This document shows, in pieces, positions 16,779 through 45,888 of a DNA stretch of 64,000 nucleotides. The position numbers and the translations under genes are program-made. Origin of the DNA: Limnohabitans sp. Jir72 (GTDB lineage Bacteria > Pseudomonadota > Gammaproteobacteria > Burkholderiales > Burkholderiaceae_C); contig NZ_NESC01000001.1 of the NCBI RefSeq assembly GCF_003063575.1, positions 372,001 to 436,000 on the forward strand, given 5' to 3'. Numbering within the stretch: position 1 is the stretch's first letter; each line of letters opens with the position of its first letter. The notes under the pieces are model-generated. The model did no database searches. It was given only the letters and a program-made list of their open reading frames with translations, and was not told the origin of the DNA.

Positions 16779-16853
16779 TGTAGGAGCCCACCCCTGTGGG
16801 CGATTGCACGGCCAGTGCGCCACAGCCAATCGCCCACGGGGTGGGCTCCTACA
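16779..16853. repeat. REP-like pair (inverted copies)
   Basis: The left copy TGTAGGAGCCCACCCC...GTGGGCGATTG (16779-16806) and its inverted partner CAATCGCCC...GGGCTCCTACA (16827-16853) are almost perfect complements around a 20-base loop. The structure lies inside the transcript between the binding-protein and permease genes. Confidence 0.85.
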
Positions 16854-30585: not shown

Positions 30586-31563
30586 TCAGACCGCCGATGG
30601 CATCAAAAATTCCCGGCTGATGCGGCCGCCCAGCACGTTCACGCGGTCCAGGAACTGTGTCAAATACGCGTGCAAGCCCGTGGCCAAAATCTCGTCGATG
30701 CGGCCAAAGGCCAGCTCTGACAGTAGGCGGCCTGCGTGGCGCAGGGTATCGCTTTCGGGGTCATGCGAGACCAGCTTCAAGTTGGACAAAACCTCGTTCA
30801 GACTGGCGTGCAGCGAGCGTGGCATGTCGGGGCGCAAGATCAGCAACTCGGCCACCCGCTCGGGGCGGATCACATCGCGGTAGACCTTGCGGTAAACCTC
30901 GAAGCCGCTGACGCTGCGCAAGATGGCGCTCCAGTGGTAGAAGTCGTATTCCTGCGTGGTTTCTGCGCCAGCCGTGCTGTATTGAGGTGCGCCAAAAAAG
31001 TCGTTGTTCATGGCATGGAACTTCACGTCCACCAAGCGTGCCGTGTTGTCGGCCCGCTCCAAGAAGGTGCCCATGCGCATGAAATACAGCGACTCGTCCA
31101 TCAGCATGGTGCCCACCGTCACACCGCGTGACAGGTGCGAGCGGAATTTCACCCACTCAAAGAACTGACCCGGATCGCGCTCGAACTCGCCGCTCTTGAG
31201 CATGCGGTTGACTTCCAGCCAGGTCTGGTTTTGTGTCTCCCACACCTCGGTGGTCAGCGTGCCGCGCACAGCACGGGCGTTCTCGCGGGCAGCGCGCAAG
31301 CACGAAATGATGGACGAGGGGTTGTCCACGTCCTTGACCATGAAGGCCATCACATCGCGGGACGTGATGGTTTTGTACAGCGCCAGGTACGCGGGCAGCA
31401 ATTCGCTGATCGACAAAATGCCTTCCCAGCCAGCCTCTACCGCGGCAGCAGATTGGGGCAAGAGCGAGGTCTCGTAACTCACATTGAGCATGCGGGCGGT
31501 GTTCTCTGCCCGCTCCATGTAGCGGGACATCCAGAAAAGGTGGTCGGCGGTTCTTGAAAGCAT
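30586..31563 (-). CDS. Alpha-E domain protein (DUF403)
   Basis: The 325-residue, mainly alpha-helical protein starts MLSRTADHLFWMSRYMERAE followed by NTARML, the conserved alpha-E opening, and has TMLMDESLYFMRMGTFLERADN and LILRPDMPRSLHASL. Alpha-E proteins are encoded next to circularly permuted ATP-grasp ligases and transglutaminases in predicted peptide or amide-forming systems; no activity is established. It follows the ATP-grasp gene by 16 bp. The same domain appears fused to an ATP-grasp in the gene at 39179-41977. Confidence 0.9.
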   Translation of the reverse strand: MLSRTADHLFWMSRYMERAENTARMLNVSYETSLLPQSAAAVEAGWEGILSISELLPAYLALYKTITSRDVMAFMVKDVDNPSSIISCLRAARENARAVRGTLTTEVWETQNQTWLEVNRMLKSGEFERDPGQFFEWVKFRSHLSRGVTVGTMLMDESLYFMRMGTFLERADNTARLVDVKFHAMNNDFFGAPQYSTAGAETTQEYDFYHWSAILRSVSGFEVYRKVYRDVIRPERVAELLILRPDMPRSLHASLNEVLSNLKLVSHDPESDTLRHAGRLLSELAFGRIDEILATGLHAYLTQFLDRVNVLGGRISREFLMPSAV

Positions 31564-31579
31564 GTGTGTTCTCCCCTTT

Positions 31580-33031
31580 TCAATCCTGCAAAATCCAGGT
31601 GTCCTTGGTGCCGCCGCCTTGGCTGCTGTTGACCACCAAAGAGCCTTCTTTCAAAGCCACGCGGGTCAAGCCACCGGGCACCATTTGCACGGTGCGGCCG
31701 CTCAGCACAAAGGGGCGCAGGTCGATGTGGCGCGGCGCGATGCCACTGTCCACAAAGGTCGGGCAGCTCGACAGGCTGAGCGTGGGCTGCGCGATGTAGC
31801 CCTCGGGGTTGGCCAGCAGTGCGCCACGGAATCGCTCAATCTCTTCCTTGGTCGAAGCCGGGCCGACCAGCATGCCGTAGCCGCCTGCGCCGTGCACTTC
31901 CTTGACCACGAGGTCTTTCAGGTTGGCCAGGGTGTACTTCAAGTCATCGGGCTTGCGGCATTGAAAAGTGGGCACGTTTTTGAGGATGGGTTCTTCGCCC
32001 AGGTAGAACTTGATCATGTCGGGCACATACGGGTAGATCGACTTGTCATCGGCCACGCCCGTGCCCACCGCGTTGCAAATCGCCACATGCCCGGCCTTGT
32101 AGGCGTCCATCAGGCCCGCGCAGCCCAGCGTCGAGGTGGGGCGGAACACATTCGGGTCCAAAAAGTCGTCGTCCACCCGGCGGTAGATCACGTCCACGCG
32201 CTTGGGGCCGCGCGTGGTGCGCATGTAGACGAACTTGTCTTTCACGAACAAGTCTTGGCCTTCGACCAACTCCACGCCCATTTGCTGCGCCAAAAAGGCG
32301 TGTTCGAAATAGGCGCTGTTGTACATGCCGGGCGTGAGCACCACCACCGTGGGCTCGGCCGTGGTGGCGGGGCTTGAGGCGCGCAGGGTCTCCAGCAGCA
32401 AGTCAGGGTAATGTGCCACCGGGGCCACGCGGTGCTGGCTGAACAATTCGGGGAAGAGCCGCATCATCATCTTGCGGTCTTCCAGCATGTAGCTCACGCC
32501 GCTGGGCACGCGCAGGTTGTCTTCGAGCACGTAGTACTCGCCCTTGCCCGCGCTGTCCGGTGCGCGCACGATGTCGATGCCGCTGATGTGCGAATAAATT
32601 TGGTTGGGCACGTCCACACCCACCATCTCGGGGCGGAACTGGGCGTTGTTTTCGATCTGCTCACGCGGGATCACGCCGGCCTTGAGGATGTCCTGGTCGT
32701 GGTAGACGTCGTGGATGAAGCGGTTCAGCGCGGTGACGCGTTGCACCAGACCGGCCTCCATGCTCTTCCATTCCTGGGCGGCGATCACGCGGGGAATCAA
32801 GTCGAAGGGGATCAGGCGCTCGGTGCCTGAGCCATCCTCGTCCTTGTCGCCATAGACCGCGAAGGTGATGCCCACGCGGCGGAAAATCATCTCGGCTTCT
32901 TCACGGCGGGCTGCCATGGTTTGGGGGTCTTGCGCCTGCAACCAGCGGGCATAGGCCTCGTAGTGTTGTCTCACCTCACCCGCATCGCCTGATGCAGGCA
33001 AGCGGCTGTACATTTCATCGAATTGGCGCAT
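31580..33031 (-). CDS. Circularly permuted type 2 ATP-grasp protein
   Basis: The 483-residue protein belongs to the DUF404/DUF407 group (YGDKDEDGSGTERLIPFDLI, YYVLEDNLRVPSGVSYMLED, VVVLTPGMYNSAYFEHAFLA, DVIYRRVDDDFLDPNVF, KEVHGAGGYGMLVGPAS). It is predicted to join a carboxylate to an amine with ATP; substrate unknown. The ATG at 33031 is taken as the start because MRQFDEMYSRL is the family N-terminus and a GCAGGAG site precedes it; the frame is open for 138 more codons antisense to comEC. It pairs with the alpha-E gene downstream. Confidence 0.92.
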   Translation of the reverse strand: MRQFDEMYSRLPASGDAGEVRQHYEAYARWLQAQDPQTMAARREEAEMIFRRVGITFAVYGDKDEDGSGTERLIPFDLIPRVIAAQEWKSMEAGLVQRVTALNRFIHDVYHDQDILKAGVIPREQIENNAQFRPEMVGVDVPNQIYSHISGIDIVRAPDSAGKGEYYVLEDNLRVPSGVSYMLEDRKMMMRLFPELFSQHRVAPVAHYPDLLLETLRASSPATTAEPTVVVLTPGMYNSAYFEHAFLAQQMGVELVEGQDLFVKDKFVYMRTTRGPKRVDVIYRRVDDDFLDPNVFRPTSTLGCAGLMDAYKAGHVAICNAVGTGVADDKSIYPYVPDMIKFYLGEEPILKNVPTFQCRKPDDLKYTLANLKDLVVKEVHGAGGYGMLVGPASTKEEIERFRGALLANPEGYIAQPTLSLSSCPTFVDSGIAPRHIDLRPFVLSGRTVQMVPGGLTRVALKEGSLVVNSSQGGGTKDTWILQD

Positions 33032-33089
33032 AGCTCGGTACTCCTGCAGTGAGGATAGCAAGATGCGTACCTGCTCGGACTGGCAGGCG

Positions 33090-35639
33090 TCAAGGCGGGG
33101 CGTGGTGCCAATAGCGGCGCGCGCGCTCGCGCTCGCAAACCAGCTGCTCAGGTGCATCGCTGCGCCAAGTGGCCGCGCCGCAGTGCACGCTGTCCACCAC
33201 ACGGATGCGCAGGCCTTGGTAGCGGGCCAGCACTGCGGGTGCCGGGTGGCCAAAACGGTTGCGGTAGCCCGCTTGCACCAGCGCCAGCTGAGGTGCCAAG
33301 GCGTGCAAGAACTCGGGCGTCGAAGAGGTCTTGCTCCCGTGGTGCGGCACCAGCAGCAGATCGACCGGCGCCAGTCCTGCCGCCACCAAGGCTTGTTCTT
33401 GCGGCGCTTCGATGTCGCCCGCGAGCAATGCCGAATGCACGCCATCGCTGATGCGCAAAACGCAACTCAGCGCATTGGGCTTGATCGGCTTGTCCAGCGG
33501 CAGCTGAGGCAGTGCCGTGGGGTGCAGCACCTCGAAACGCACGCCGTCCCAGACCCAAGCCTGGCCCCGTTGGCAAGGCTTTGTGCTGACGGCCACCGCA
33601 TGCAAAGGGTGCCCAGCTTCCAGCGATGACCACAGCGCCGCTTGCGGCTGCATGGCCAATACCGCTGGCGCACCGCCCGTGTGGTCAGTGTCGCGGTGGC
33701 TGAGCATCAGCACATCCAGCCGCTCGGCCATCTGCGCCAGCAAAGGCACCAACACGCGGTGACCGGCATCGCTTTCGGGCGAATAGCGCGGCCCCGCGTC
33801 GTACAGCAAACTGTGACGCGCCGTTCGCACCAAAACAGCGTTTCCCTGCCCCACATCGGTGATGAGCAATTCATAAGTACCCATCGCAGGCCGAGGCGCC
33901 GTCCAAAACAGTGCAGGCCACAGCAGGGGCAAGCTGGCCAGCTTCCACGACTTGGGCCAGCGCGACACCCACAACAGCGCCGCCAACAAAGCCAAGACGG
34001 CAAAACCCCAGGGCGGCAAAGCCAGGCTCACACTGGCACCCGGCCAGCTGGCCATCCAGACCAACAGTGTGGTCAAAGGCCTGAGCGCCGCTGCAGCCAG
34101 CACCGCAAACCCCGACCAGAGCACCCCCAGCATGGCCAGCGGCGTGACCACAAAACTCACCCACGGAATGGCCACCAGATTGGCCAGCAAACCCACAAGC
34201 GAAACCTGCCCAAAGAAGAGCAAACACAAAGGTGCCAACGCCAGCGTGACCACCGATTGCTCGCGCAACAAGCCCCACACCCGAGCACCCCAACGCGCCA
34301 AGCCTTGCGGCCACACCACATGCACCCCTGAAAGCCCCCCAAGCCACGCACGCCAGCGGTGCACGCCCCGCTCAAGCACAGGCTTGGTGCACAAGCAAGG
34401 CGGATCGGCCTGCGGTGCATCGGTTCTGGGCCCCTCGCGCTGGCTGGTCCACAGCAGCACCGCCACCGCCACAAAGCTGAGCCAAAAGCCCGGCTGCAAC
34501 AATGCCCAAGGGTCCAGCGTCAACACCACGGCCGCCGCCAGCAAACACACCAGACCGGCCGACCATTGCCGTGCAGACAAGCGCAAGAGGACCACCACGC
34601 CCAGCATCCAGACCGTGCGCTGCGCAGGCACGCCCCAGCCACTGAAGGCGGCATACAACGCCGCCAGCCCCAAGCCCGCCACAGCCCCCACCTGCGGCGC
34701 AGGCCAATGCAAAGCCCCCTTGAAACCCCACAGCGCAGACCGGCGCCAGCACCAGCCCACCGTCATGGCCGCCAGCCAGGCGAACATGGTCACGTGCAGG
34801 CCCGAGATGCTCATCAGGTGCGCCACGCCGGTGGCCCGAAACACATCCCAGTCGCTGCGGTCGATCGCCGCCTGATCGCCTGTGACCAGCGCCACCACGA
34901 TGCCGCCGACGTTCAGGCCCGCGTTGCCAGTCACCCCCAAGCGCGTCTGCAGCCGGTCGCGCACGCTTTGCCGCCACCACTCCATCGGGTGCCGCCAGGT
35001 CTGCGCCAGGCGCAGGGGTGCGGGGTGGGCCGCCCCGGCGCGGACCGTTCCGGTGGCGCGAATGCCCTGCTCCCACAGCCACAGCTCATGGTCAAACCCC
35101 CGGGGGTTCAAGTTGCCGTGCGCGGCCTTCAGGCGGGCACGCAAACGCCAGCGCTCGCCGGCCTGCACCGGCTCGGGCAAGGCCGTCAAATTCCAGCCGC
35201 TGTCCGTCACGCCGTCTTGCCCATACCAGGCCAAATGGATGTGCTCGGGCACCTGCACGCCTTGCCCACCTTGGACCGCGTGCGCCTGCTCCACCTGAAA
35301 CCTGAAACGCCAGCCGATGTCTTGCCGCTGCGGCATGGCCTGCACCACGCCCACCAGATCCAGGTCTTGCCCCTCCAGCGCCGGGTCCATGCCCGGCGAC
35401 TTCCACAGCGCATGCCCCCCGGTGCAGGCAAAAGACAACAAGGCACTCGCCAAACACATACCAAGCGATGGCATCGCACCCCAGCAGCGGCGCCGCCACA
35501 GCACCAGCAAGGCCAGTGCAGCCAGCGCGGCATACGCCTCAGTGGACCAAAGGGCGGGCTGCTGCAGCTCAAGCGCCACGCCTGCGCACCAGGCCAGCAG
35601 CGCAGGCCCCAAGCCATGTGCCCAGCGCAAGTCATGCAT
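33090..35639 (-). CDS. comEC: DNA internalization-related competence protein ComEC/Rec2
   Basis: The 849-residue inner-membrane protein forms the channel and nuclease-like part of natural DNA uptake. It has a DUF4131-type N-terminal region with hydrophobic segments, the Competence domain (SISGLHVTMFAWLAAMTVGW and ALYAAFSGWGVPAQRTVWML), many membrane helices, and a C-terminal metallo-beta-lactamase domain with SHRDTDHTGG near residue 650 and LLVPHHGSKTSSTPEFL. Length is normal. It splits the two halves of the ATP-grasp/alpha-E/transglutaminase region. Confidence 0.95.
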   Translation of the reverse strand: MHDLRWAHGLGPALLAWCAGVALELQQPALWSTEAYAALAALALLVLWRRRCWGAMPSLGMCLASALLSFACTGGHALWKSPGMDPALEGQDLDLVGVVQAMPQRQDIGWRFRFQVEQAHAVQGGQGVQVPEHIHLAWYGQDGVTDSGWNLTALPEPVQAGERWRLRARLKAAHGNLNPRGFDHELWLWEQGIRATGTVRAGAAHPAPLRLAQTWRHPMEWWRQSVRDRLQTRLGVTGNAGLNVGGIVVALVTGDQAAIDRSDWDVFRATGVAHLMSISGLHVTMFAWLAAMTVGWCWRRSALWGFKGALHWPAPQVGAVAGLGLAALYAAFSGWGVPAQRTVWMLGVVVLLRLSARQWSAGLVCLLAAAVVLTLDPWALLQPGFWLSFVAVAVLLWTSQREGPRTDAPQADPPCLCTKPVLERGVHRWRAWLGGLSGVHVVWPQGLARWGARVWGLLREQSVVTLALAPLCLLFFGQVSLVGLLANLVAIPWVSFVVTPLAMLGVLWSGFAVLAAAALRPLTTLLVWMASWPGASVSLALPPWGFAVLALLAALLWVSRWPKSWKLASLPLLWPALFWTAPRPAMGTYELLITDVGQGNAVLVRTARHSLLYDAGPRYSPESDAGHRVLVPLLAQMAERLDVLMLSHRDTDHTGGAPAVLAMQPQAALWSSLEAGHPLHAVAVSTKPCQRGQAWVWDGVRFEVLHPTALPQLPLDKPIKPNALSCVLRISDGVHSALLAGDIEAPQEQALVAAGLAPVDLLLVPHHGSKTSSTPEFLHALAPQLALVQAGYRNRFGHPAPAVLARYQGLRIRVVDSVHCGAATWRSDAPEQLVCERERARRYWHHAPP

Positions 35640-35762
35640 CGTCAGCCCCCCTGAATCGGCTTTTTCATGGGCGCCTGGCCTCGGGCTGGCGCGTGTCTTG
35701 CTAGTTTAAAAAGCCCAAGCTGCACTTGTCATGCGTGCAGCCCCTGTTGCGCTCGAAGAAAT

Positions 35763-38700
35763 ATGTCGATACACGTTGCCCTGCACCACGTCACCCATTA
35801 CACCTACGACCGGCCGGTTCAGCTCGGCCCGCAAGTCATCCGCTTGCGCCCCGCACCGCACAGCCGCAGCCGCATCCTGAGCTACAGCCTCAAGGTCGAG
35901 CCCGCAGATCACTTCATCAACTGGCAGCAGGACGCCTTTGCCAACTACCAAGCGCGGCTGGTCTTCCCCAAAAAGACCACCTCGTTCAAGGTGACCGTGG
36001 ACGTGGTCACCGAAATGGCCGTGTTCAACCCCTTTGATTTCTTTCTGGAGCCCTCGGCCGAGGAAGTGCCCTTCAAGTACTCGGACCTGGTCAAGGAGGA
36101 GTTGCAGTCTTACCTGGACAAGGACAACAAAACGCCCTTGTTCAAAAAATACCTGGCCAGCCTGGACCGCAAGCGCCAGCGCACCATCGACTTCCTCGTC
36201 CAGATCAACCAGCGCCTGCACCAGGACATCCGCTACACCATCCGCATGGAGCCCGGGGTGCAAACGCCCGAAGAAACGCTGACCCTGAAAAGCGGCTCTT
36301 GCCGCGACTCGGCCTGGCTGCTGGTGCAGCTCTTCCGCCACATGAACATCGCGGCCCGCTTTGTCTCGGGTTACCTGATCCAACTCGCCCCAGACGTGAA
36401 ATCGCTCGACGGCCCCAGCGGCACCGAAGTCGACTTCACAGACCTGCACGCTTGGTGCGAGGTGTATTTGCCCGGCGCAGGCTGGGTGGGGCTGGACCCC
36501 ACATCGGGCCTCTTGGCCGGTGAGGGGCACATTCCGCTGGCCTGCACCCCGCAACCCTCAGCAGCGGCACCGATCGAAGGCCTGATGGACAAGGCCGAGG
36601 TCGAGTTCAGCCACGAGATGAGCGTGACGCGCATCCACGAGTCGCCCCGCGTGACCAAGCCTTACACCGACGAGCAATGGGCCCAGGTGCTGCAGCTGGG
36701 CGAACAGGTCGATGCACAACTGGTGGCTGAGGACGTGCGCCTGACCATGGGCGGCGAGCCCACCTTTGTGTCCACGCAAGACCCCGATGGTGCCGAGTGG
36801 AACACCGATGCCCTGGGCCCGACCAAGCGGGGCCTGGCCACCGAGCTGGTGCACAAGCTGCGCCAGCAATACGGTCAAGGCGGCTTCTTGCACTTTGGCC
36901 AAGGCAAGTGGTACCCGGGCGAGCAGCTGCCACGCTGGGCGCTTTCCATTTACTGGCGTGCCGATGGCTCGCCCTGCTGGCAAAACCCCGAGGTGTTCGC
37001 CGACGAACGCGAGCCCAGCCACTACACCAGCGCCGATGCAAAGCGTTTCGTTCAGGGCCTGACACAGCAATTGGGCTTGCCAGACGACACCGTGCTGCCG
37101 GGCTACGAAGACACCTGGTACTACCTCTGGCGCGAACGCCGATTGCCGGTGAACGTGGACCCGTTTGACGCCAAGCTGGACGACGAGATGGAGCGCAACC
37201 GCCTGCGCCGCATCTTCAGCCAAGGCCTGGACCAGCCGGTGGGTTATGTGTTGCCGATTCAGCCTGTAGAAGCGGACACACCCGAGTTGACCGACCCACA
37301 GTGGCAAACCGGCCGCTGGTTCCTGCGAGACGAACGCATGTACCTCATGCCCGGCGACTCGCCCATGGGCTGGCGCCTGCCGCTGGACTCGCTGCCTTGG
37401 GCCGCGCCGACCGACCGTTGGCACATGATCGAGCAAGACCCCTTTTCGCCACATCTCGCCCCACGCCACCCCCTGCCCTCCATGGCGCCCGTGACGCAGC
37501 AGGCGCGCCATGCCAAAGCCATGCCCGCGCAAGCGCCGGTGGCCAAGTTCGAGTCCGACCCGTCGGTGGTGCGAACCGCTTTGTGCGTGGAAGTGCGCGA
37601 CCCCAACCGCGCCAACGGCCCCAAGGTGGAAGCCGAGGCCATGGCCAAAGGCGAAAAATCTGGCGTGCTTTACGTCTTCATGCCGCCCCTGGCGAGGCTG
37701 GAAGATTACCTGGCCTTGGTCAGCGCCGTGGAGGCGACCGCCGTGAAGCTGGGCCTGAAGATCGTCATGGAAGGCTACCCGCCGCCGCGCGACCCACGCC
37801 TGAAACTCCTGCAGGTCACGCCCGACCCGGGCGTGATCGAGGTCAACATCCACCCGGCCCACAACTGGACCGAGCTGGTCGAGCACACCGAGTTTTTGTA
37901 CCAAGCGGCTTTCGAGACGCGCCTGTCGGCCGAAAAGTTCATGACCGATGGCCGCCACACCGGCACCGGCGGCGGCAACCACATGGTGATGGGCGGGGCC
38001 ACACCTGCTGACAGCCCCTTCCTGCGCCGCCCCGAGGTGCTGGCCAGCCTCATCCTTTATTGGCACAACCACCCGAGCTTGAGCTATTTGTTCAGCGGCA
38101 TGTTCATCGGCCCCACCAGCCAGGCACCACGGGTGGACGAGGCTCGCAACGACCAGGTCTATGAGCTGGAGATCGCGCTGCGCGAGATCACACGCAACCG
38201 CCAGAAGTTTGGTGCCGACATGCCGCCGTGGCTGGTGGACCGCACCCTGCGCAACATTTTGGTGGACGTGACCGGCAACACGCACCGCAGCGAGTTTTGC
38301 ATCGACAAGATGTACTCGCCCGACAGCAGCACAGGGCGTTTGGGCCTGTTGGAGCTGCGGGCGTTTGAGATGCCGCCGCACGCCCGCATGAGCATCGTGC
38401 AGCAGCTGCTTCTGCGTGCGCTGGTGGCCCGCTTTTGGGATGCGCCGTATTCAGCGCCCGTGACCCGCTGGGGCACCGAGCTGCACGACCGCTTCATGCT
38501 GCCGCACTGGATTCACAAAGACTTTGACGACGTGCTGACCGAGCTGGGCGATGCGGGCTTTCACTTTGACCCCAGCTGGTTTGCACCACATTTCGAGTTC
38601 CGCTTCCCGCTGGTCGGTCAGGTCCGGGTCGACGGCGCGGTGGTGACGCTGCGCAACGCGCTGGAGCCCTGGCACGTCATGGGCGAAGAAAGCTCAGCAG

Positions 38701-39164
38701 GCGGCACCGCCCGCTATGTGGACTCGTCGCTCGAGCGCATCGAGGTCCATGTGACCGGCATGAACCCCTCACGCCACACGGTGACCGTGAACGGCAAGGC
38801 CCTGCCCCTGCAACCCACGGGTGTGGTGGGCGAATACGTGGCCAGCGTGCGCTACAAAGCCTGGAACCCGCCTTCGTCGCTGCACCCGAGCATCGGCATG
38901 CATGCGCCGCTCACGGTGGACCTGGTGGACACCTGGATGAAGCGCTCACTGGGTGGTTGCCAGTACCACGTGGTCCACCCCGGTGGCCGCAGCTACGACA
39001 GCTTCCCGGTCAACGCCTATGAGGCCGAAAGCCGACGCCTGGCGCGCTTCTTCCGCATGGGGCACACGCCCGGGGCGATGAAGCAGCTGGCGGCGCTCGG
39101 CCCCAACGCCACACTGCACGCCAGTCCTGAGTTCCCTTACACACTGGATTTGCGCAAGGCTTGA
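35763..39164 (+). CDS. Large transglutaminase-fold protein with DUF2126
   Basis: The 1133-residue protein begins with a bacterial transglutaminase N-domain (MSIHVALHHVTHYTYDRPVQ), followed by a transglutaminase core with C180 (SGSCRDSAWLLVQLF), H229 (DLHAWCEVYLPG) and D245 (LDPTSG). From about residue 300 to the end it is the DUF2126 region (TMGGEPTFVSTQDPDGAEWN, GGGNHMVMGGATPADSPFLR, EMPPHARMSIVQQLLLRALV). It likely cleaves or forms amide bonds on a peptide or modified substrate. Its stop overlaps a possible TTG of the next gene. Confidence 0.92.
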   Translation: MSIHVALHHVTHYTYDRPVQLGPQVIRLRPAPHSRSRILSYSLKVEPADHFINWQQDAFANYQARLVFPKKTTSFKVTVDVVTEMAVFNPFDFFLEPSAEEVPFKYSDLVKEELQSYLDKDNKTPLFKKYLASLDRKRQRTIDFLVQINQRLHQDIRYTIRMEPGVQTPEETLTLKSGSCRDSAWLLVQLFRHMNIAARFVSGYLIQLAPDVKSLDGPSGTEVDFTDLHAWCEVYLPGAGWVGLDPTSGLLAGEGHIPLACTPQPSAAAPIEGLMDKAEVEFSHEMSVTRIHESPRVTKPYTDEQWAQVLQLGEQVDAQLVAEDVRLTMGGEPTFVSTQDPDGAEWNTDALGPTKRGLATELVHKLRQQYGQGGFLHFGQGKWYPGEQLPRWALSIYWRADGSPCWQNPEVFADEREPSHYTSADAKRFVQGLTQQLGLPDDTVLPGYEDTWYYLWRERRLPVNVDPFDAKLDDEMERNRLRRIFSQGLDQPVGYVLPIQPVEADTPELTDPQWQTGRWFLRDERMYLMPGDSPMGWRLPLDSLPWAAPTDRWHMIEQDPFSPHLAPRHPLPSMAPVTQQARHAKAMPAQAPVAKFESDPSVVRTALCVEVRDPNRANGPKVEAEAMAKGEKSGVLYVFMPPLARLEDYLALVSAVEATAVKLGLKIVMEGYPPPRDPRLKLLQVTPDPGVIEVNIHPAHNWTELVEHTEFLYQAAFETRLSAEKFMTDGRHTGTGGGNHMVMGGATPADSPFLRRPEVLASLILYWHNHPSLSYLFSGMFIGPTSQAPRVDEARNDQVYELEIALREITRNRQKFGADMPPWLVDRTLRNILVDVTGNTHRSEFCIDKMYSPDSSTGRLGLLELRAFEMPPHARMSIVQQLLLRALVARFWDAPYSAPVTRWGTELHDRFMLPHWIHKDFDDVLTELGDAGFHFDPSWFAPHFEFRFPLVGQVRVDGAVVTLRNALEPWHVMGEESSAGGTARYVDSSLERIEVHVTGMNPSRHTVTVNGKALPLQPTGVVGEYVASVRYKAWNPPSSLHPSIGMHAPLTVDLVDTWMKRSLGGCQYHVVHPGGRSYDSFPVNAYEAESRRLARFFRMGHTPGAMKQLAALGPNATLHASPEFPYTLDLRKA

Positions 39165-39178
39165 GCGACAATGGTTCA

Positions 39179-41977
39179 ATGAATGAATCCAGCCAAAGCA
39201 CTGTCCAACATCTGGACGCGCAAGCCATGTCCTGGCTGGCGCACCAGGCCTTGGCCGCGCCCGAGGGACACTGGGATGAACTGCGCGGATTGACCCTTGC
39301 GCCCACGGCACAAGAGCAAGCGTCGGATGCGCACATGAGCAGTGCTTGGCAAACGTTCATCGACCATGTGGCGGGCGAAGGCCTGCAGGGTCTGAACGTG
39401 CGCATGAAAAACTTGCAACGGCAAGTGCGCGACAACGGCATCACCTACAACGTGTACGCCGCGGCCGATCAGCCCCAGCGGCCATGGTCGCTCGACCTGT
39501 TCCCACTCATGGTGCCCGAGGCCAATTGGCAGCAGATCGAAGCGGGTGTGTTGCAGCGCATGCAGCTGCTCGAACGCATCATGGCCGACGCCTACGGCCC
39601 CCAAAAACTGGTGCTCGACGGGCATTTGCCTGCGGCGCTCATACAAGGCCACCCCGCGTACCTGCCCGCCATGCATGGCGTGCCGCCAGTGGGGGGCCGT
39701 TATTTGTCGGTGGCCGCATTCGATCTGGCACGCGGGCCGGATGGCTGCTGGTGGCTCTTGTCGCAACGCACGCAAGCGCCTTCGGGCTTGGGCTATTTGC
39801 TGGAAAACCGTTTGATCGTCTCGCGCTTGTTTCCGCAGGCGTTTGAAGCGTTTCCTGTCAAGCGCCTGGCCGAGACCTACCGCACGCTGATCGACGGCAT
39901 CAAGGCCAGAAGCCCGGCGGGTGCTTCGGCCCACATCGCACTGCTCACGCCTGGCCCCTACAACGAAACCTATTTTGAACACGCCTACCTGGCCCGCTAC
40001 CTGGGCCTGAGCTTGGTGCAGGGCAACGACCTGACGGTGCGCGACGAAAAGCTTTACCTCAAAACCCTGCAAGGCCTGCAACCGGTGCACGGCCTTTTGC
40101 GCCGCGTGGACGACGATTGGCTGGACCCGCTGGAGCTGCGCGCCGACTCCACGCTGGGCGTGCCCGGCCTCTTGCAGGCGGTGCGCAGTGGCAACGTGCT
40201 GGTGGCCAACACACCCGGCTCGGGTTTTCTGGAGTCGAACGCGCTGCTGGGCTTCATGCCTGCGCTGGCGCGTGACCTGTTGGGTGAAGAACTGCAGCTG
40301 CCCGCCATTCCGAGTTGGTGGTGCGGCGAAGCAGCGGCCCTGAAAGATGTGTTGCCGCGCATCGGCAGCTGCGTGATCAAACCCACCTACCCTTACAACA
40401 CCGACCGCCACAGCTTTGAGCCTGTGCTGGGCCACCAACTGAGCCGCCGCGAACAGGACGAATGGGCGGGCCGCATCCTGCGCGACCCGGATGCCTTCAC
40501 CCTGCAGTCGTGGTTGCCGCTGTCGCACCAGCCCACCTGGCAAACCCGGGTGGATGGCCCAAGCGAAAGCCAAGCGGCGATTGAATCTCGCCCAGTGGTG
40601 CTGCGCGTGTTTGCCGTGGCCGATGCACAAGGCGGCTGGCAGGTGCTGCCCGGTGGCTTGGCGCGGCTGGGCACCCGCGAAGGCATTGCCTCGATGCAGC
40701 GCGGCGGCAGCAGCGCCGATGTGTGGGTGCAGGCGAGCTCGGCTGAGGCCGCTGAGGGCGGCGCCCTTGCGGACGACGGTGTGCGTGCCCAGACGGGAAC
40801 GGCTCAGCGTTTGGTGCCCGGCGATAACACACCCCGCGCCGTCTTGGCGACCCAAACACAGTCGTCCGTGCCCATGGCACCATCCCAATCGCAATCCCAA
40901 TCCCAATCCCAATCCCAATCCCAATCGCCATCGCAACAGCCCTCGGCCAAGGTGTTGGCCCAGCGCCAGCGCTTGGTCACCAGCCGTGCTGCCGAAAACC
41001 TGTTCTGGATGGGCCGCTACACCGAGCGCACCGAAAACACCTTGCGCCTGGTGCGCCTGAGCTTGGAAATCCTGAACAGCGAAAACCAGAACCAGCCCCA
41101 GCTGCTGAACTTCATCACCCAAATGGCCACACGCCACGGCCTGGTGCGCCCCGGCGTGCCTGCGGCGGCGCTGTCGCACCGTGTGTTTGAACGCTCGCTG
41201 ATCGCGGGTCTGTGGGACAAAAAACTCGCCACCAGCGTGGGCTTCAACCTGCGTTCGGTGCGGCTGGCAGCGGCCTCGGTGCGCGAGCGTTTGTCGCCCG
41301 AGCACTGGCGCTTGCTGGAACAAGCCGAGTTGCGCTTTTTCAACTCGGTGGCCAGCGACAACTCGCAAGACACCGTGGAAGTGCAAGGCCTGCTGGCCGA
41401 GACCAGCCAGATGCTGGCGGCCCTGACCGGTGCGCAAACCGACCGCATGACACGCGACGACGGCTGGCGCCTTTTGTCGATTGGCCGCCACATCGAGCGG
41501 CTCGAATTTTTATCGAGCGCCTTGAGCAGCGCCGTGCAAGGCGGATTGATCGGCGAACAAGCCGGGTTTGACGCCGTGCTCGACCTGTTTGACAGCACCA
41601 TCAGCTTCCACGCGCAGTACCAGCAAAGCCGCACGCCCCAGGCCCTGCTGGACCTGCTGGTGACCAACCCCGACAACCCGCGTGCTTTGGGCTGGGTGGC
41701 GCACACCCTGCGCTCGCGCCTGCTGCGCATGGGCAACTTGGCCGACGGCGTCACCTTGCCGCTGGCAGGTTTGGTGCCACGCTTGGTGGACCTCACACCC
41801 GAAGCCCTGTGGCCACTGGACTGCCGGGCCGATGCGATCTGGACCACCTCGGTCCAGCCCCTGCCCTTGCACGCGGCATTGGCCGATTGCCAGACCGCCG
41901 CGCGGCATGTGTCTGACCAACTGTGTGGCCTGTTCTTCACCCACAGTGGTGAGGCCCGTTTCAGCTTTGTCTCTTGA
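39179..41977 (+). CDS. Circularly permuted ATP-grasp fused to alpha-E domain
   Basis: The 932-residue fusion has an N-terminal ATP-grasp (DUF404/407) of about 530 residues (DNGITYNVYAAADQPQRPW, LLTPGPYNETYFEHAYLARY, RRVDDDWLDPLELRADSTLG, GSCVIKPTYPYNTDRHSFEP). A low-complexity Ser-Gln linker (about 565-590) follows, then an alpha-E domain starting SRAAENLFWMGRYTERTENT. It is a fused version of the two genes at 30586-33031 and probably works with the flanking transglutaminases. ATG 39179 is preferred; TTG 39161 is possible. Confidence 0.92.
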   Translation: MNESSQSTVQHLDAQAMSWLAHQALAAPEGHWDELRGLTLAPTAQEQASDAHMSSAWQTFIDHVAGEGLQGLNVRMKNLQRQVRDNGITYNVYAAADQPQRPWSLDLFPLMVPEANWQQIEAGVLQRMQLLERIMADAYGPQKLVLDGHLPAALIQGHPAYLPAMHGVPPVGGRYLSVAAFDLARGPDGCWWLLSQRTQAPSGLGYLLENRLIVSRLFPQAFEAFPVKRLAETYRTLIDGIKARSPAGASAHIALLTPGPYNETYFEHAYLARYLGLSLVQGNDLTVRDEKLYLKTLQGLQPVHGLLRRVDDDWLDPLELRADSTLGVPGLLQAVRSGNVLVANTPGSGFLESNALLGFMPALARDLLGEELQLPAIPSWWCGEAAALKDVLPRIGSCVIKPTYPYNTDRHSFEPVLGHQLSRREQDEWAGRILRDPDAFTLQSWLPLSHQPTWQTRVDGPSESQAAIESRPVVLRVFAVADAQGGWQVLPGGLARLGTREGIASMQRGGSSADVWVQASSAEAAEGGALADDGVRAQTGTAQRLVPGDNTPRAVLATQTQSSVPMAPSQSQSQSQSQSQSQSPSQQPSAKVLAQRQRLVTSRAAENLFWMGRYTERTENTLRLVRLSLEILNSENQNQPQLLNFITQMATRHGLVRPGVPAAALSHRVFERSLIAGLWDKKLATSVGFNLRSVRLAAASVRERLSPEHWRLLEQAELRFFNSVASDNSQDTVEVQGLLAETSQMLAALTGAQTDRMTRDDGWRLLSIGRHIERLEFLSSALSSAVQGGLIGEQAGFDAVLDLFDSTISFHAQYQQSRTPQALLDLLVTNPDNPRALGWVAHTLRSRLLRMGNLADGVTLPLAGLVPRLVDLTPEALWPLDCRADAIWTTSVQPLPLHAALADCQTAARHVSDQLCGLFFTHSGEARFSFVS
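40887..40928 (+). repeat. Hexanucleotide tandem repeat encoding a Ser-Gln linker
   Basis: Seven consecutive AATCCC/AATCGC units (42 bp) encode a run of Gln-Ser pairs between the ATP-grasp and alpha-E domains. Because the unit is 6 bp, copy-number change keeps the reading frame and alters only linker length. Confidence 0.9.
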
Positions 41978-41989
41978 CCGACAGTGACC

Positions 41990-42892
41990 ATGCGCCTGGC
42001 CATCACCCACGAAACCCGCTACAGCTACAGCCCTGCCGTGCAAACCGCGCAGCATGTGGCCCACCTGCAGCCCGCCAACTCACCGTGCCAACAAGTGCTC
42101 AGCCACAGCTTGCATGTTGAGCCTGCGGCCTTTGTGCAGCACAACGTGGACGCGTATTGCAACCACCGCGCTTACTGGGCATTGACCAACCCCCACAAAG
42201 GTTTGCTGGTGCGCGCTTACAGCGAGCTGGAAACCTCAGTCATTGCGCAAGCCACCTCCTCACAAAGCTGGGAATCGGTGCGCGAACATTTCCGTTACCG
42301 GGGCGGACATCCGGCCGACGTGAACAACGGCTTTGTTTTTGGCTCGCACCATGCGCCCGTGCACGAGGCCTTTTTGGCTTATGCGCAAAGCAGCTTCACC
42401 CCGGGGCGGGCCTTGATGCCAGCGGCGCTGGAACTGACGGCGCGCATGCACAGCGATTTCACCTACGCCTCGCAAAGCACCGACATCAACACCCCGGCAC
42501 TGCAAGCGCTGCAAAGCAAACGCGGTGTTTGTCAGGACTTCGCCCACATCCTGCTGGCCTGCCTGCGCTCGCTGGGCTTGCCCGCCCGTTATGTGAGCGG
42601 CTACCTGCTGACCCAACCGCCACCGGGCCAGCCGCGCTTGGTGGGCAGCGACGCCTCGCACGCCTGGGCCTCGGTGTATTTGCCCGAGCTGGCCAGCCAC
42701 GCCTGCCAAGGCTGGCTGGACCTGGACCCCACCAACAACCGATGTGGCCTGGCCAGCCCGGGCCTGGACTATGTGCGCCTGGCGGTGGGCCGCGACTTTG
42801 CCGATGTGTCGCCCCTGCGCGGCGTGCTGCAAGGCGGTGGGGAGCACACACTGGATGTGGCCGTCACGGTGGCACCACTGGACGAGCATTGA
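41990..42892 (+). CDS. Transglutaminase-like cysteine peptidase-fold protein
   Basis: The 300-residue protein begins MRLAITHETRYSYSPAVQTA, a bacterial transglutaminase N-terminal region, followed by the core with C181 in SKRGVCQDFAHILLACLR, H224 in SDASHAWASVYLPE and D246 in WLDLDPTNN. A complete triad suggests activity as an amidase, peptidase or transferase. It lies 12 bp after the ATP-grasp/alpha-E fusion and is the third gene of the plus-strand operon. An upstream in-frame GTG at 41984 is an alternative start. Confidence 0.91.
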   Translation: MRLAITHETRYSYSPAVQTAQHVAHLQPANSPCQQVLSHSLHVEPAAFVQHNVDAYCNHRAYWALTNPHKGLLVRAYSELETSVIAQATSSQSWESVREHFRYRGGHPADVNNGFVFGSHHAPVHEAFLAYAQSSFTPGRALMPAALELTARMHSDFTYASQSTDINTPALQALQSKRGVCQDFAHILLACLRSLGLPARYVSGYLLTQPPPGQPRLVGSDASHAWASVYLPELASHACQGWLDLDPTNNRCGLASPGLDYVRLAVGRDFADVSPLRGVLQGGGEHTLDVAVTVAPLDEH

Positions 42893-42948: not shown

Positions 42949-43028
42949 TGTAGGAGCCCACCCCTGTGGGCGATGGCTTGCAGGGCGTGTGCCACGCCCA
43001 TCGCCCACAGGGGTGGGCTCCTACAAAA
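42949..43028. repeat. REP-like pair (inverted copies)
   Basis: TGTAGGAGCCCACCCCTGTG...GATGG at 42949-42975 and its exact inverted partner ending GGGTGGGCTCCTACAAAA at 43028 form the cleanest hairpin of this family in the window. It occupies the centre of the 308-bp gap between the transglutaminase-like gene and ridA; the remaining ~170 bp up to 43200 shows no gene and presumably carries the ridA promoter. Confidence 0.85.
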
Positions 43029-43200
43029 AATCAATCCCTTGCTTGCTGCTCAAGACATCAAGAGGCCGGATCAACAAGCCACACATCGCGGCCAAAGCCT
43101 CCTGGCTGTAACAAGCCACCCTGCAGGTCAGCGCTTCAACTCCGACACGGCCGATTCAGCGACAATCTGATCCAGTTTTCAACCCTGAGATGAGCCCACC

Positions 43201-43659
43201 ATGAGCGTTTACGACACCCTGAAATCCTTGAACATCGAATTGCCACCCGTGGCGGTGCCTGCTGCGGCCTATGTACCCTACGTTCAAACCGGTAACCTGG
43301 TTTTCCTGTCCGGCCACATTGCCAAAAAAGACGGCAAAGTCTGGGCCGGCCAACTGGGCAAAAACATCGACACCACCGAAGGCCAACAAGCCGCTCGCGC
43401 CGTGGCGATTGACCTGATGGGCACGCTGCACGCCGCCGTGGGCGACCTGAACAAGGTCAAGCGCATCGTCAAGGTGATGAGCCTGGTCAACTCTACAGGC
43501 GATTTCACCGAGCAGCACCTGGTCACCAACGGATGCAGCGAGCTGCTGGGCCAGGTGTTTGGCCCGCAAGTCGGTGCACACGCCCGCAGCGCTTTTGGCG
43601 TGGCCCAGATCCCCATGGGCGCTTGCGTCGAGATCGAGCTGATCGCCGAACTGGCTTGA
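43201..43659 (+). CDS. RidA-family (YjgF/YER057c/UK114) protein
   Basis: The 152-residue product has the longer RidA-subfamily form: SLNIELPPVAVPAAAYVPYV, NLVFLSGHIAKKDGKVWAGQ, RIVKVMSLVNSTGDFTEQH and the C-terminal GAHARSAFGVAQIPMGACVE. RidA proteins remove reactive enamine/imine intermediates from amino-acid metabolism. The conserved Arg (in GAHARSA) and Glu at the end are present. It is the first of a run of small plus-strand genes. Confidence 0.92.
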   Translation: MSVYDTLKSLNIELPPVAVPAAAYVPYVQTGNLVFLSGHIAKKDGKVWAGQLGKNIDTTEGQQAARAVAIDLMGTLHAAVGDLNKVKRIVKVMSLVNSTGDFTEQHLVTNGCSELLGQVFGPQVGAHARSAFGVAQIPMGACVEIELIAELA

Positions 43660-43668
43660 CCCTCGGCC

Positions 43669-43932
43669 ATGTCCATTGAACTGAGCAAAGAAGACCGCGC
43701 TCAGGCGATTGCCAGCATTGAGCGCTACTTTGAAGCCAACTTCGAGCAAAAGATCGGCAACATTTCTGCCAGTGCCTTGCTCGGCTTTGTGCTCGAAGAA
43801 ATCGGCCCCAGCATCTACAACCGCGCCGTGAGCGATGCCAAAGAACGCATGATCACCCGCGTGGAAGATCTGGAATACGAAGTCCGTGCGGACGAATTCC
43901 AATACTGGCAAAAGTTCAACAAGCGCAAATGA
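43669..43932 (+). CDS. DUF2164 family protein
   Basis: The 87-residue soluble protein reads MSIELSKEDRAQAIASIERY, then FEANFEQKIGNISASALLGF and IYNRAVSDAKERM, matching the DUF2164 family. Function is unknown. It starts 9 bp after ridA and its stop overlaps the next start codon. Confidence 0.85.
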   Translation: MSIELSKEDRAQAIASIERYFEANFEQKIGNISASALLGFVLEEIGPSIYNRAVSDAKERMITRVEDLEYEVRADEFQYWQKFNKRK

Positions 43933-44755: not shown

Positions 44756-45271
44756 ATGACCATTTCCATGTCCAGCGCCAGTTTGCCTGTGTGCACCCGC
44801 ATGCTGACCAACCTGAGCCACATCCTGGCCAAGGCCGAGCAATTCGTCGACACCAAAAAGATCGACCCCACGGCGCTCACCACTTACCGCCTGGCCCCCG
44901 ACATGTTCCCCTTCACACGCCAAGTGCTGATCGCTTGCGACGCGGTGAAAAACGGCGTAGCCCGTTTGAGCGGCATCGAAGCGCCCAAGTTCGATGACAC
45001 CGAAACCACCTTGGCACAACTGCAAGAACGCATTCAGAAAACCCTGGCCTTCATCGCCACCGTGCCAGCCGCAGCGCTGGACGGCACCGAGGACAAAGAG
45101 ATCACCTTCCCTGCTGGCCCGGGCAAAACCCGCACCCTCAAAGGTCAGGATTACCTCACGGGCTGGATGCTGCCCAATCTGTACTTCCACATCACCACGG
45201 CTTACACCATCCTGCGCCACAACGGCGTGGATGTGGGCAAGATCGACTACCTGCTGGGCGCACAGGGCTGA
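44756..45271 (+). CDS. DUF1993 domain protein
   Basis: The 171-residue, mostly helical product (MTISMSSASLPVCTRMLTNL, SHILAKAEQFVDTKKIDPTA, LAPDMFPFTRQVLIACDAVK, NLYFHITTAYTILRHNGVDV) matches DUF1993, a DinB-like four-helix family. Function is unknown. An ACCGGAGA ribosome-binding site precedes the ATG. A terminator-like hairpin follows. Confidence 0.87.
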   Translation: MTISMSSASLPVCTRMLTNLSHILAKAEQFVDTKKIDPTALTTYRLAPDMFPFTRQVLIACDAVKNGVARLSGIEAPKFDDTETTLAQLQERIQKTLAFIATVPAAALDGTEDKEITFPAGPGKTRTLKGQDYLTGWMLPNLYFHITTAYTILRHNGVDVGKIDYLLGAQG

Positions 45272-45285
45272 TCCTGTCACCGAGT

Positions 45286-45322
45286 GGACTTTCTTGGGGA
45301 TTACACGAAGTCCCCTTTTTTT
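45286..45322 (+). terminator. Rho-independent terminator after the DUF1993 gene
   Basis: GGGGA (45296-45300) and TCCCC (45311-45315), alternatively GGACTT with AAGTCC, form a stem followed by seven T residues. It separates the small-gene operon from the molybdenum-hydroxylase genes. Confidence 0.65.
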
Positions 45323-45419
45323 GAGCCTCTCCATAATCAGTTGGGCTGTATGGATCCTTGTGGATTCACGGCCCCGGCTCGTCGTCTGCACAAACGGGCC
45401 TCAAATCATGGAGACGAAC

Positions 45420-45878
45420 ATGGCTCAAATCAATTTGAAGGTCAACGGAAAGGCCCGCGCAGTCGATGCCGATCAGGACATCCCGCTGCTGTACGCGCTG
45501 CGCGACAACCTTGGCCTGAATGGCCCCAAATTCGGCTGTGGCAAAGGCCAATGCGGCGCCTGTACCGTGATCGTCAACGGTCAAGCGACACGTTCTTGCA
45601 TCACCCCCGCAGCCAGCGTGCAAGGCAAAGCAGTCACGACCCTGGAGGGGCTGGGCAGCTCAGCCAAACCCGGCAAGCTTCAGCAAGCCTTCATGGACAC
45701 CCAGGCGGTGCAATGCGGTTACTGCATCAACGGCATGATCATGACGGCCACAGCTTTGCTGGCACAAAACAAAAACCCCAGCGACCAGCAAATCAGCGAA
45801 GCGCTGGCGGGCAACCTTTGCCGCTGCGGCACCCACCAACGCATTGTGGCCGCCGTCAAACGCGCCATCACCGCCTGA
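45420..45878 (+). CDS. [2Fe-2S] subunit of a molybdenum hydroxylase (IorA-like)
   Basis: The 152-residue protein has a plant-ferredoxin type cluster site with C40, C45, C48 and C60 (FGCGKGQCGACTV...SC) and a second, C-terminal cluster with C99, C102, C134 and C136 (QCGYC...LCRCG). It passes electrons from the Mo subunit to an acceptor. The ATG at 45420 has a GGAGA site; an ATG four codons earlier is possible. It has no signal peptide, so export would need the Tat-tagged partner encoded 10 bp downstream. Confidence 0.92.
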   Translation: MAQINLKVNGKARAVDADQDIPLLYALRDNLGLNGPKFGCGKGQCGACTVIVNGQATRSCITPAASVQGKAVTTLEGLGSSAKPGKLQQAFMDTQAVQCGYCINGMIMTATALLAQNKNPSDQQISEALAGNLCRCGTHQRIVAAVKRAITA

Positions 45879-45888
45879 GGAAAGCACC

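Follow-up and report, generated by a model that had tools for sequence, protein, structure and literature searches.

What do two sets of ATP-grasp, alpha-E and transglutaminase genes on either side of comEC do in Limnohabitans, and do they belong together? We analysed a window of 64,000 nucleotides from Limnohabitans sp. Jir72, in which the following features were identified:

30586-31563, minus strand: alpha-E protein of set 1 (325 aa; Pfam Alpha-E, 1.3e-94)
31580-33031, minus strand: split circularly permuted (CP) ATP-grasp protein of set 1 (ATG at 33031; 483 aa; CP_ATPgrasp_2, 3.3e-165)
33057-33072, minus strand: sigma-54-like -24/-12 element ahead of set 1, AGGTACGCATCTTGCT (matches 9 of the 11 scored positions; 41 nt upstream of the ATP-grasp ATG)
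33090-35639, minus strand: comEC (TIGR00361 / ComEC_Rec2, 339 bits; cutoff, 190)
35687-35702, plus strand: sigma-54-like -24/-12 element ahead of set 2, TGGCGCGTGTCTTGCT (matches 10 of the 11 scored positions)
35763-39164, plus strand: transglutaminase-DUF2126 protein (1133 aa; Bact_transglu_N, 1.6e-25; Transglut_core, 8e-18; DUF2126, E=0, 1335 bits)
39179-41977, plus strand: CP ATP-grasp/alpha-E fusion (932 aa; CP_ATPgrasp_2, 1.1e-138; Alpha-E, 5e-57)
41990-42892, plus strand: stand-alone transglutaminase-like protein (300 aa; Transglut_core, 9.7e-20; Bact_transglu_N, 3.7e-19)
43201-43659, plus strand: RidA-like gene (PF14588, 9e-16; PF01042, 2e-15), which bounds set 2 on the right and lies outside the system

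The initial annotation of this DNA had described six genes, from the alpha-E gene to the stand-alone transglutaminase gene, with comEC between the two halves. All six reading frames are open, Pfam matches bear out the family assignments, and comEC indeed lies between set 1 and set 2. The gene layout shows two predicted transcription units, one with the ATP-grasp gene followed by the alpha-E gene (set 1) and the other with the transglutaminase-DUF2126, ATP-grasp-alpha-E fusion and transglutaminase genes (set 2). Searches of the whole genome yielded two matches each for alpha-E, CP ATP-grasp and Bact_transglu_N, all of them inside the window. The locus belongs to the ATP-grasp/alpha-E/transglutaminase/Anbu system, a prediction dating from 2009. 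In the literature on these families, we recognised no paper naming a substrate or a product.

The two ATP-grasp proteins differ in the motifs expected of an active enzyme. We assume that the E-x-N metal motif and the Gly-rich loop have the same catalytic roles as in GspS-type enzymes. In the split protein, which matches PDB 3N6X (E=6.7e-214), E170, D171, N172 and four loop glycines are present in 52 of 52 aligned sequences, whereas E-x-N is found in none of the 75 aligned sequences of the fused protein. Glycines 381, 383, 384 and 386 of the latter are retained in 7, 3, 18 and 3 of the 75, respectively, and the Lys residue preceding the loop in 61. The fused ATP-grasp is likewise degenerate in the Burkholderia cenocepacia, Azospirillum, Shinella and Sinorhizobium copies. 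Its sequence thus suggests that it is probably a non-catalytic partner.

The initial annotation had also overlooked DUF2126, which makes up three quarters of the protein encoded at 35763-39164 and is labelled 'putative amidoligase' in Pfam. The ligase of set 2 would be DUF2126, and to speak of two ligase/alpha-E pairs in a catalytic sense is misleading, since the fused ATP-grasp lacks the E-x-N motif that the split copy has. We take DUF2126 to be the permuted GS-like ligase of the 2009 system. Such a GS-like fold found no confirmation in its AlphaFold2 model, which has a pLDDT of 68 and gave no Foldseek match at E<=0.001, or in a profile search of PDB sequences, which returned nothing significant. 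The system of Iyer et al. 2009 (Mol BioSyst 5:1636) is indeed said to include a permuted GS-like ligase.

The alpha-E protein of set 1 is predicted to be all-helical (AlphaFold2, pLDDT 88). No match was found in the PDB by Foldseek at E<=0.001 (best E 0.56) or by sequence search, and a translin match (E=0.2) was put down to chance. Both transglutaminase-fold proteins had been credited with complete C-H-D triads. Among aligned proteins that are in frame, cover >70% of the length and are >35% identical, window included, these Cys, His and Asp residues are invariant in 81 of 81 transglutaminase-DUF2126 and 71 of 71 stand-alone sequences. The stand-alone protein matches PDB 3ISR (1.9e-10).

The initial annotation had treated the two halves as one system, and their distribution agrees with this: they do co-occur in related genomes, whereas a lack of co-occurrence would, by its own standard, have spoken against it. 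In 37 genomes of the genus at >=90% completeness, including that of Jir72 and the 9%-contaminated G017, DUF2126 and alpha-E were both matched in 28 and neither in 9. One of these 28, G034 (99% complete), has kept set 1, the fusion, the last transglutaminase and Anbu, with a mere remnant of DUF2126, as only the ends of its transglutaminase-DUF2126 gene are left. DUF2126 may therefore be dispensable, unless this reflects an assembly fault. Anbu is found in the same 28 genomes, plus G051. In 40 genomes taken one per other family, alpha-E was matched in 21, Anbu in 20 and DUF2126 in 15; neither Anbu nor DUF2126 occurs without alpha-E, a count that includes the alpha-E of the fusion, and alpha-E and Anbu are present without DUF2126 in 6.

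It had also been remarked that the window holds no Anbu gene. This is true of the window, but the hint of absence was wrong, as the genome encodes Anbu on another contig than the cluster, beside mutS (G000:C3:96631-97455, minus strand). Anbu adjoins the cluster in the sister genomes G052, G027, G037, G007 and G022. The arrangement of the two sets also varies. In 80 loci, they are split around comEC in 36, in same-strand tandem in 12 and on opposite strands without comEC in 5; the remaining 27 gave no set-1 ATP-grasp match in the stretch examined. As judged by homology matches, the pieces of the system are shown to be mostly present, absent and relocated together.

Upstream sequences connect the two units further. 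Each stands behind a conserved element that, from its sequence, is of the sigma-54 type. Sigma-54-like sites occur in the window at chance level (61 observed, 71 expected), so the case for promoters rests on conservation and position. Upstream of the split ATP-grasp gene, the element scores >=10 in 22 of 52 loci and >=9 in 42; the copy in the window, at 9 of 11, is imperfect. Where transglutaminase-DUF2126 heads its unit, 52 of 67 loci score >=10 upstream of it and the other 15 score below 10; of the 11 loci with this gene in tandem, none scores >=10. Scores >=10 are found upstream of none of 50 alpha-E, 74 fusion ATP-grasp and 79 TG2-type genes. In a 22-row alignment of upstream sequences, the set 2 element is the only conserved block besides the start codon. 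A relaxed exact sigma-54 pattern matched the genome 95 times, as against 4 for the reversed pattern.

The genome harbours rpoN and ntrC. However, rpoN is present in 93 of 100 genomes, making its co-occurrence with the system non-discriminating, and rpoN is absent from the complete genome G090, where alpha-E and Anbu are both present. Over 400 nt of upstream sequence, a simple consensus scan revealed no enrichment of NtrC-like palindromes (score >=9 in 10 of 77, as against ~12% of the background). Outside the genus, a sigma-54-like site precedes the first gene of the B. cenocepacia cluster (record L149); none was found in the Azospirillum, Shinella, Deinococcus and Tsukamurella copies.

The predicted promoters point to nitrogen limitation. 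They fit the control reported for B. cenocepacia, where I35_5080-83 are described as targets of NtrC and sigma-54 (PMC5491218). In Pseudomonas putida, PP_2686-2688, with NtrB/NtrC given as putative regulator, are reported to rise 11-15-fold under nitrogen limitation in the wild type (PMC7801951). Strict sigma-54 control does not fit that organism, since the three genes are still induced in the rpoN mutant (14.2-, 16.0- and 19.6-fold), and the Anbu gene PP_2685 rises only 1.12-fold in the wild type (PMC7801951).

As to comEC, 15 genomes lacking a comEC-flanking system were sampled, and in all 15 it adjoins the RidA-like gene that here comes after set 2, with the RidA-like region at ~0.26-0.63 kb from comEC (match edges). 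We conclude from these sites that comEC is a bystander. Absence of the system amounts to 6 changes on the comEC tree (32 rows), at least 5 of which are forced by supported branches. A functional link, for instance if DNA taken up during nitrogen stress served as a nutrient, might be read into the 36 of 80 loci with comEC between the halves, and into the actinobacterium Tsukamurella, where comEC lies 1.5 kb before an ATP-grasp/alpha-E/transglutaminase run. We consider it highly improbable, as comEC is kept without these neighbours at all 15 empty sites, and no sigma-54 element scores >=10 before comEC in 46 loci (>=9 in 2). On the basis of the empty comEC-RidA sites, we reject comEC as a functional partner in Limnohabitans.

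The system is widespread among bacteria. The amidoligase system, potentially for peptide tagging, that Iyer, Abhiman, Burroughs and Aravind described in 2009 (cited in PMC5666114 and PMC6376114) shares CP ATP-grasp, alpha-E, transglutaminase and Anbu with our locus, whereas here the parts are dispersed over the genome, Anbu stands alone beside mutS and the fused ATP-grasp is degenerate. The four-gene Anbu operon of Yersinia bercovieri likewise comprises Anbu, transglutaminase, ATP-grasp and alpha-E, and P. putida PP_2685-2688 combine Anbu with transglutaminase and respond to nitrogen (PMC7801951). Unlike our locus, these two four-gene sets, as described, have no DUF2126 and no ATP-grasp-alpha-E fusion. 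The B. cenocepacia genes I35_5080-83 (BCAM1233-1236) have the same domain order (PMC5491218) as record L149, from which we infer that they are the same cluster. L149 encodes ATP-grasp, alpha-E, transglutaminase and transglutaminase-DUF2126, then the fusion and another transglutaminase. It differs from the locus in forming one run on one strand, with no comEC match and one extra transglutaminase; its split ATP-grasp is 56% and its alpha-E 38% identical to those of the locus.

On balance, we favour the view that the locus and Anbu represent one dispersed copy of an ATP-grasp/DUF2126 (GS-like amidoligase)/alpha-E/transglutaminase/Anbu system, which most likely serves the cell during nitrogen shortage. 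The P. putida rpoN-mutant values and G034 have slightly lowered our confidence in it. NtrC and sigma-54 would switch on both units upon nitrogen limitation. The split ATP-grasp would act with alpha-E to convert a carboxylate to an acyl phosphate, which would then be joined to an amine. DUF2126 would be a second ligase working with the fused ATP-grasp/alpha-E protein, whose ATP-grasp half may hold or position the substrate in place of normal Mg-ATP binding. The transglutaminase-fold enzymes and Anbu might cleave the products, transfer them or remove them. Most likely, what is made would be a peptide or else a tag joined by an amide link to peptides or proteins, letting the cell reuse nitrogen. 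Against this reading stand findings reported for a related operon, in which phosphate release by the ATP-grasp was not stimulated by Gln or Glu, Anbu did not act as a peptidase and was not detected in complex with its partners (PMC6376114).

That two pathways merely lie side by side, with set 1 and Anbu as a core peptide system and set 2 acting on its own substrate, would account for alpha-E and Anbu without DUF2126 in 6 of the 40 genomes and, remnant apart, in G034. The Azospirillum and Shinella copies of set 2, with no set-1 match within the ~20 kb examined, and the two alpha-E domains of the locus, just 17-22% identical, could be read in the same way. We consider this rather unlikely, given the both-or-neither pattern in all 37 genus genomes, the promoter type common to both sets, the tandem loci and the consistent company of DUF2126 with alpha-E, that of the fusion included. 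Slightly more credit, still on the unlikely side, goes to a small-molecule route, in which a storage peptide, or one resembling glutathionylspermidine, would be made by the ligases and its nitrogen freed by the hydrolases, with no protein tagged. The name of 3N6X, 'putative glutathionylspermidine synthase', the nitrogen-limitation control reported in B. cenocepacia (PMC5491218) and P. putida (PMC7801951) and metagenomes in which these domains are reported to correlate with urea metabolism (PMC3597751) are consistent with it; yet a proteasome-like Anbu ring seems excessive for a small-peptide hydrolase.

The initial annotation had suggested a make-and-trim cycle acting on a peptide or on a 'cell-wall-like polymer'; the latter would make the system an envelope or capsule modifier. 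HvyA, a transglutaminase homologue with an NtrC peak in its promoter, is reported to prevent capsulation of Caulobacter swarmer cells (PMC10274813), but no wall or capsule gene is found among the annotated neighbours in the window, and we regard this role as improbable. Pupylation, with PafA, Dop, Pup and the proteasome, offers a works-like analogy only, as it pairs an amidoligase with a deconjugating enzyme and adds a proteasome-like particle. Tagging of proteins or peptides in nitrogen starvation, distinct from ubiquitin and pupylation, is a speculative and quite unlikely elaboration of our preferred reading. The active ATP-grasp would prime a substrate, the DUF2126 GS-like enzyme with its built-in transglutaminase-fold editor would attach it, the pseudo-ATP-grasp/alpha-E protein would be a carrier without catalytic activity, and Anbu with the second transglutaminase would degrade or recycle the conjugates.

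With both units and Anbu considered as one system, the search for the product is narrowed to nitrogen limitation. The ligase role in set 2 would pass to DUF2126, the fused ATP-grasp becoming a candidate partner protein. A comparative test is possible among Limnohabitans relatives, since those that have the system and those that lack it are interspersed on the comEC tree.

All six genes named in the initial annotation are intact open reading frames with correctly assigned families. The transglutaminase-fold domain of the 35763-39164 product stood as well, and the DUF2126 fused to it, which takes up about three quarters of the length and is labelled 'putative amidoligase' in Pfam, had been overlooked.

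30586-31563, minus strand: alpha-E (set 1)
31580-33031, minus strand: split ATP-grasp (set 1)
33090-35639, minus strand: comEC
35763-39164, plus strand: transglutaminase-DUF2126 protein (TG-DUF2126, set 2)
39179-41977, plus strand: ATP-grasp/alpha-E fusion (set 2)
41990-42892, plus strand: last transglutaminase (TG2, set 2)
43201-43659, plus strand: RidA-like gene
Contig C3, 96631-97455 (1243-2070 of record L003), minus strand: Anbu, 11 nt downstream of mutS, same strand

Searches of the genome (3.69 Mb, 45 contigs) returned two matches each for alpha-E, CP ATP-grasp and Bact_transglu_N, every one inside the window. The suggested search for Anbu elsewhere in the genome yielded a single proteasome-family match, a 275-residue Anbu (E=6e-90 against a crystallised Anbu) adjoining mutS on a different contig. 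No sigma-54 element was found upstream of Anbu in the two Limnohabitans loci checked; together with the 11-nt spacing and the shared strand, this suggests that Anbu may be transcribed with mutS instead of with the remaining system genes. The alpha-E model (30589-31563) is a confident all-helical fold (pLDDT 88) for which Foldseek gave no hit in the PDB at E<=0.001, and R4, W11, R14, E17, R18, R24 and R170 are invariant in 51 sequences.

Set 1, set 2 and Anbu are largely jointly present. The two halves, whose co-occurrence in related genomes had been proposed as a check, are matched or absent together in all 37 genus genomes at least 90% complete: DUF2126 and alpha-E both give matches in 28 and are both missing in 9. 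Anbu is found in the same 28 and in G051, a genome in which comEC was likewise not found. Among all 60 genus genomes, drafts included, alpha-E occurs without DUF2126 in three and without Anbu in three, and Anbu occurs alone in one (G051). Of 40 further genomes, each from a different other family, 21 have alpha-E, and among these 20 have Anbu and 15 DUF2126; by coordinates, the distance from Anbu to an alpha-E is no more than ~13 kb in all of those 20 but G064. As the compared genomes share ancestry, Fisher values on this co-occurrence are not independent tests. In one of the 28, G034, TG-DUF2126 is cut down to its two ends, through either a genuine deletion or an assembly collapse; set 1, both other set-2 genes and Anbu are all there. 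This remnant (L155:5823-6065, contig C30), about 30 codons plus the last 53 residues, has comEC on one side and an otherwise intact set 2 on the other.

Gene order was scanned in 80 named loci with a TG-DUF2126 relative, the top 80 out of 588 confirmed stretches. Nine of the highest-ranking named loci, with 90-94% identity over the query, come from Limnohabitans, which marks the source as a Limnohabitans-type genome. Within these best 80, the halves flank comEC on opposite strands in 36; the set-1 ATP-grasp is in tandem on the same strand in 12 (Burkholderia, Pelomonas, Ideonella, Scleromatobacter and others) and on the opposite strand without comEC in 5, and no set-1 ATP-grasp match was found in the scanned stretch in 27, some of which are short contigs. 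In two Limnohabitans records (L016 and L020), both sets adjoin Anbu and mutS.

We also compared 15 comEC regions, from 10 genus genomes without the system (G029 and G009 being <90% complete) and 5 with the system elsewhere. None of the 15 fetched regions had a match to set-1 or set-2 genes at comEC, with only 0.9 kb available on the set-1 side in L105. The RidA-like gene region lies ~0.26-0.63 kb from comEC, between match edges, in all 15, the match displayed in L100 and L101 being the overlapping antisense frame. In each of the five genomes with the system elsewhere, it sits next to Anbu, on a contig other than that of comEC. On a 32-row comEC tree, which is only a proxy since comEC may itself have been transferred, absence of the system requires 6 changes, and supported branches force at least 5 of them; as few changes arose in 12 of 500 shuffles. 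Proximity to comEC is seen again, perhaps by chance, in a second phylum: in Tsukamurella tyrosinosolvens (L154:4838-15062), an ATP-grasp/alpha-E/transglutaminase run begins 1.5 kb after comEC, with a DNA polymerase III delta gene and rpsT in between and a RidA gene 3.3 kb after the run.

At the right edge of the locus, a frame at 43156-43911 (minus strand) overlaps the RidA-like gene, and the frames of both strands match in relatives; the plus-strand gene is backed by Pfam, and the antisense frame has no family. A perfect inverted repeat with 27-nt arms (42950-43024) follows the last set-2 gene and may be a REP-like element or a terminator; its arm recurs with one mismatch at 133-159 and 16780-16806 (4 matches versus none expected). 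Further on, 44994-48117 encodes a [2Fe-2S] protein and a molybdopterin-binding oxidoreductase.

The two ATP-grasps differ in their motifs, which we take to be metal- and phosphate-binding by analogy with glutathionylspermidine-synthetase-type ATP-grasps. In the split protein, E170-D171-N172 and four glycines of the loop are conserved in 52/52 sequences, whereas the fused one has E-x-N in 0/75, with the four glycines left in 7, 3, 18 and 3 of 75 and the Lys preceding the loop kept in 61. The same loss is found in fused copies of B. cenocepacia, Azospirillum, Shinella and Sinorhizobium, and E-D-N and G-G-Y-G are kept in split copies of B. cenocepacia, Deinococcus and Tsukamurella. Judging from these motifs, the fused copy is most likely a non-catalytic ATP-grasp that would serve DUF2126.

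Both units of the window are preceded by a sigma-54-type -24/-12 element and share this promoter type. Elements were scored over 11 positions, GG and GC being required, in the 200 nt upstream of genes in the same loci, leaving out matches with less upstream sequence; as the loci share ancestry, the counts are not independent. Scores >=10 were obtained for TG-DUF2126 in 52/67 loci where it is the first gene and in 0/11 where it is in tandem, and in 20/30 loci when sampled one per genus or MAG. The split ATP-grasp reached >=10 in 22/52 and >=9 in 42/52 loci, and >=9 in 8/10 tandem loci with a measurable start where it heads the run. The comEC control gave >=10 in 0/46 and >=9 in 2/46, and random 270-nt stretches 0.9% and 5%, respectively. 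No element >=10 was found for alpha-E (0/50), the ATP-grasp of the fusion (0/74), TG2-type genes (0/79) or positions within fused genes (0/74 and 0/80). In a 22-row upstream alignment, the element and the start codon are the only conserved blocks.

The genome encodes rpoN, and ntrC above the curated cutoff. In PMC5491218, B. cenocepacia I35_5080-83 (DUF404/407, DUF403 and two transglutaminases) are common NtrC and sigma-54 targets; our B. cenocepacia record has the same domain order, with an element before the first gene. PMC7801951 gives an 11-15-fold increase of P. putida PP_2686-2688 in nitrogen-limited wild type (NtrB/NtrC being the putative regulator), a 14- to 20-fold increase still in an rpoN mutant, and 1.12-fold for the Anbu gene PP_2685 in wild type. 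We found no enrichment of NtrC palindromes upstream and no sigma-54-type element in the non-Burkholderiales loci tested, and alpha-E and Anbu also occur in a complete genome that lacks rpoN (G090). Given these observations and the rpoN-mutant and PP_2685 values, a nitrogen response has more support across genera than strict control by sigma-54.

For a related operon, PMC6376114 describes phosphate release by the ATP-grasp, with neither Anbu peptidase activity nor a complex detected. The literature searched, the 2009 paper itself excepted, yielded neither the degeneracy of the fused ATP-grasp nor the Comamonadaceae promoter pattern. We file the Jir72 genes as a member of the ATP-grasp/alpha-E/transglutaminase/Anbu system reportedly predicted in 2009. 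In Jir72, expression would be triggered by nitrogen limitation; the split ATP-grasp and DUF2126 would form amide bonds, the transglutaminase-fold enzymes and Anbu would cleave or transfer, and the product may be a peptide or an amide-linked tag.
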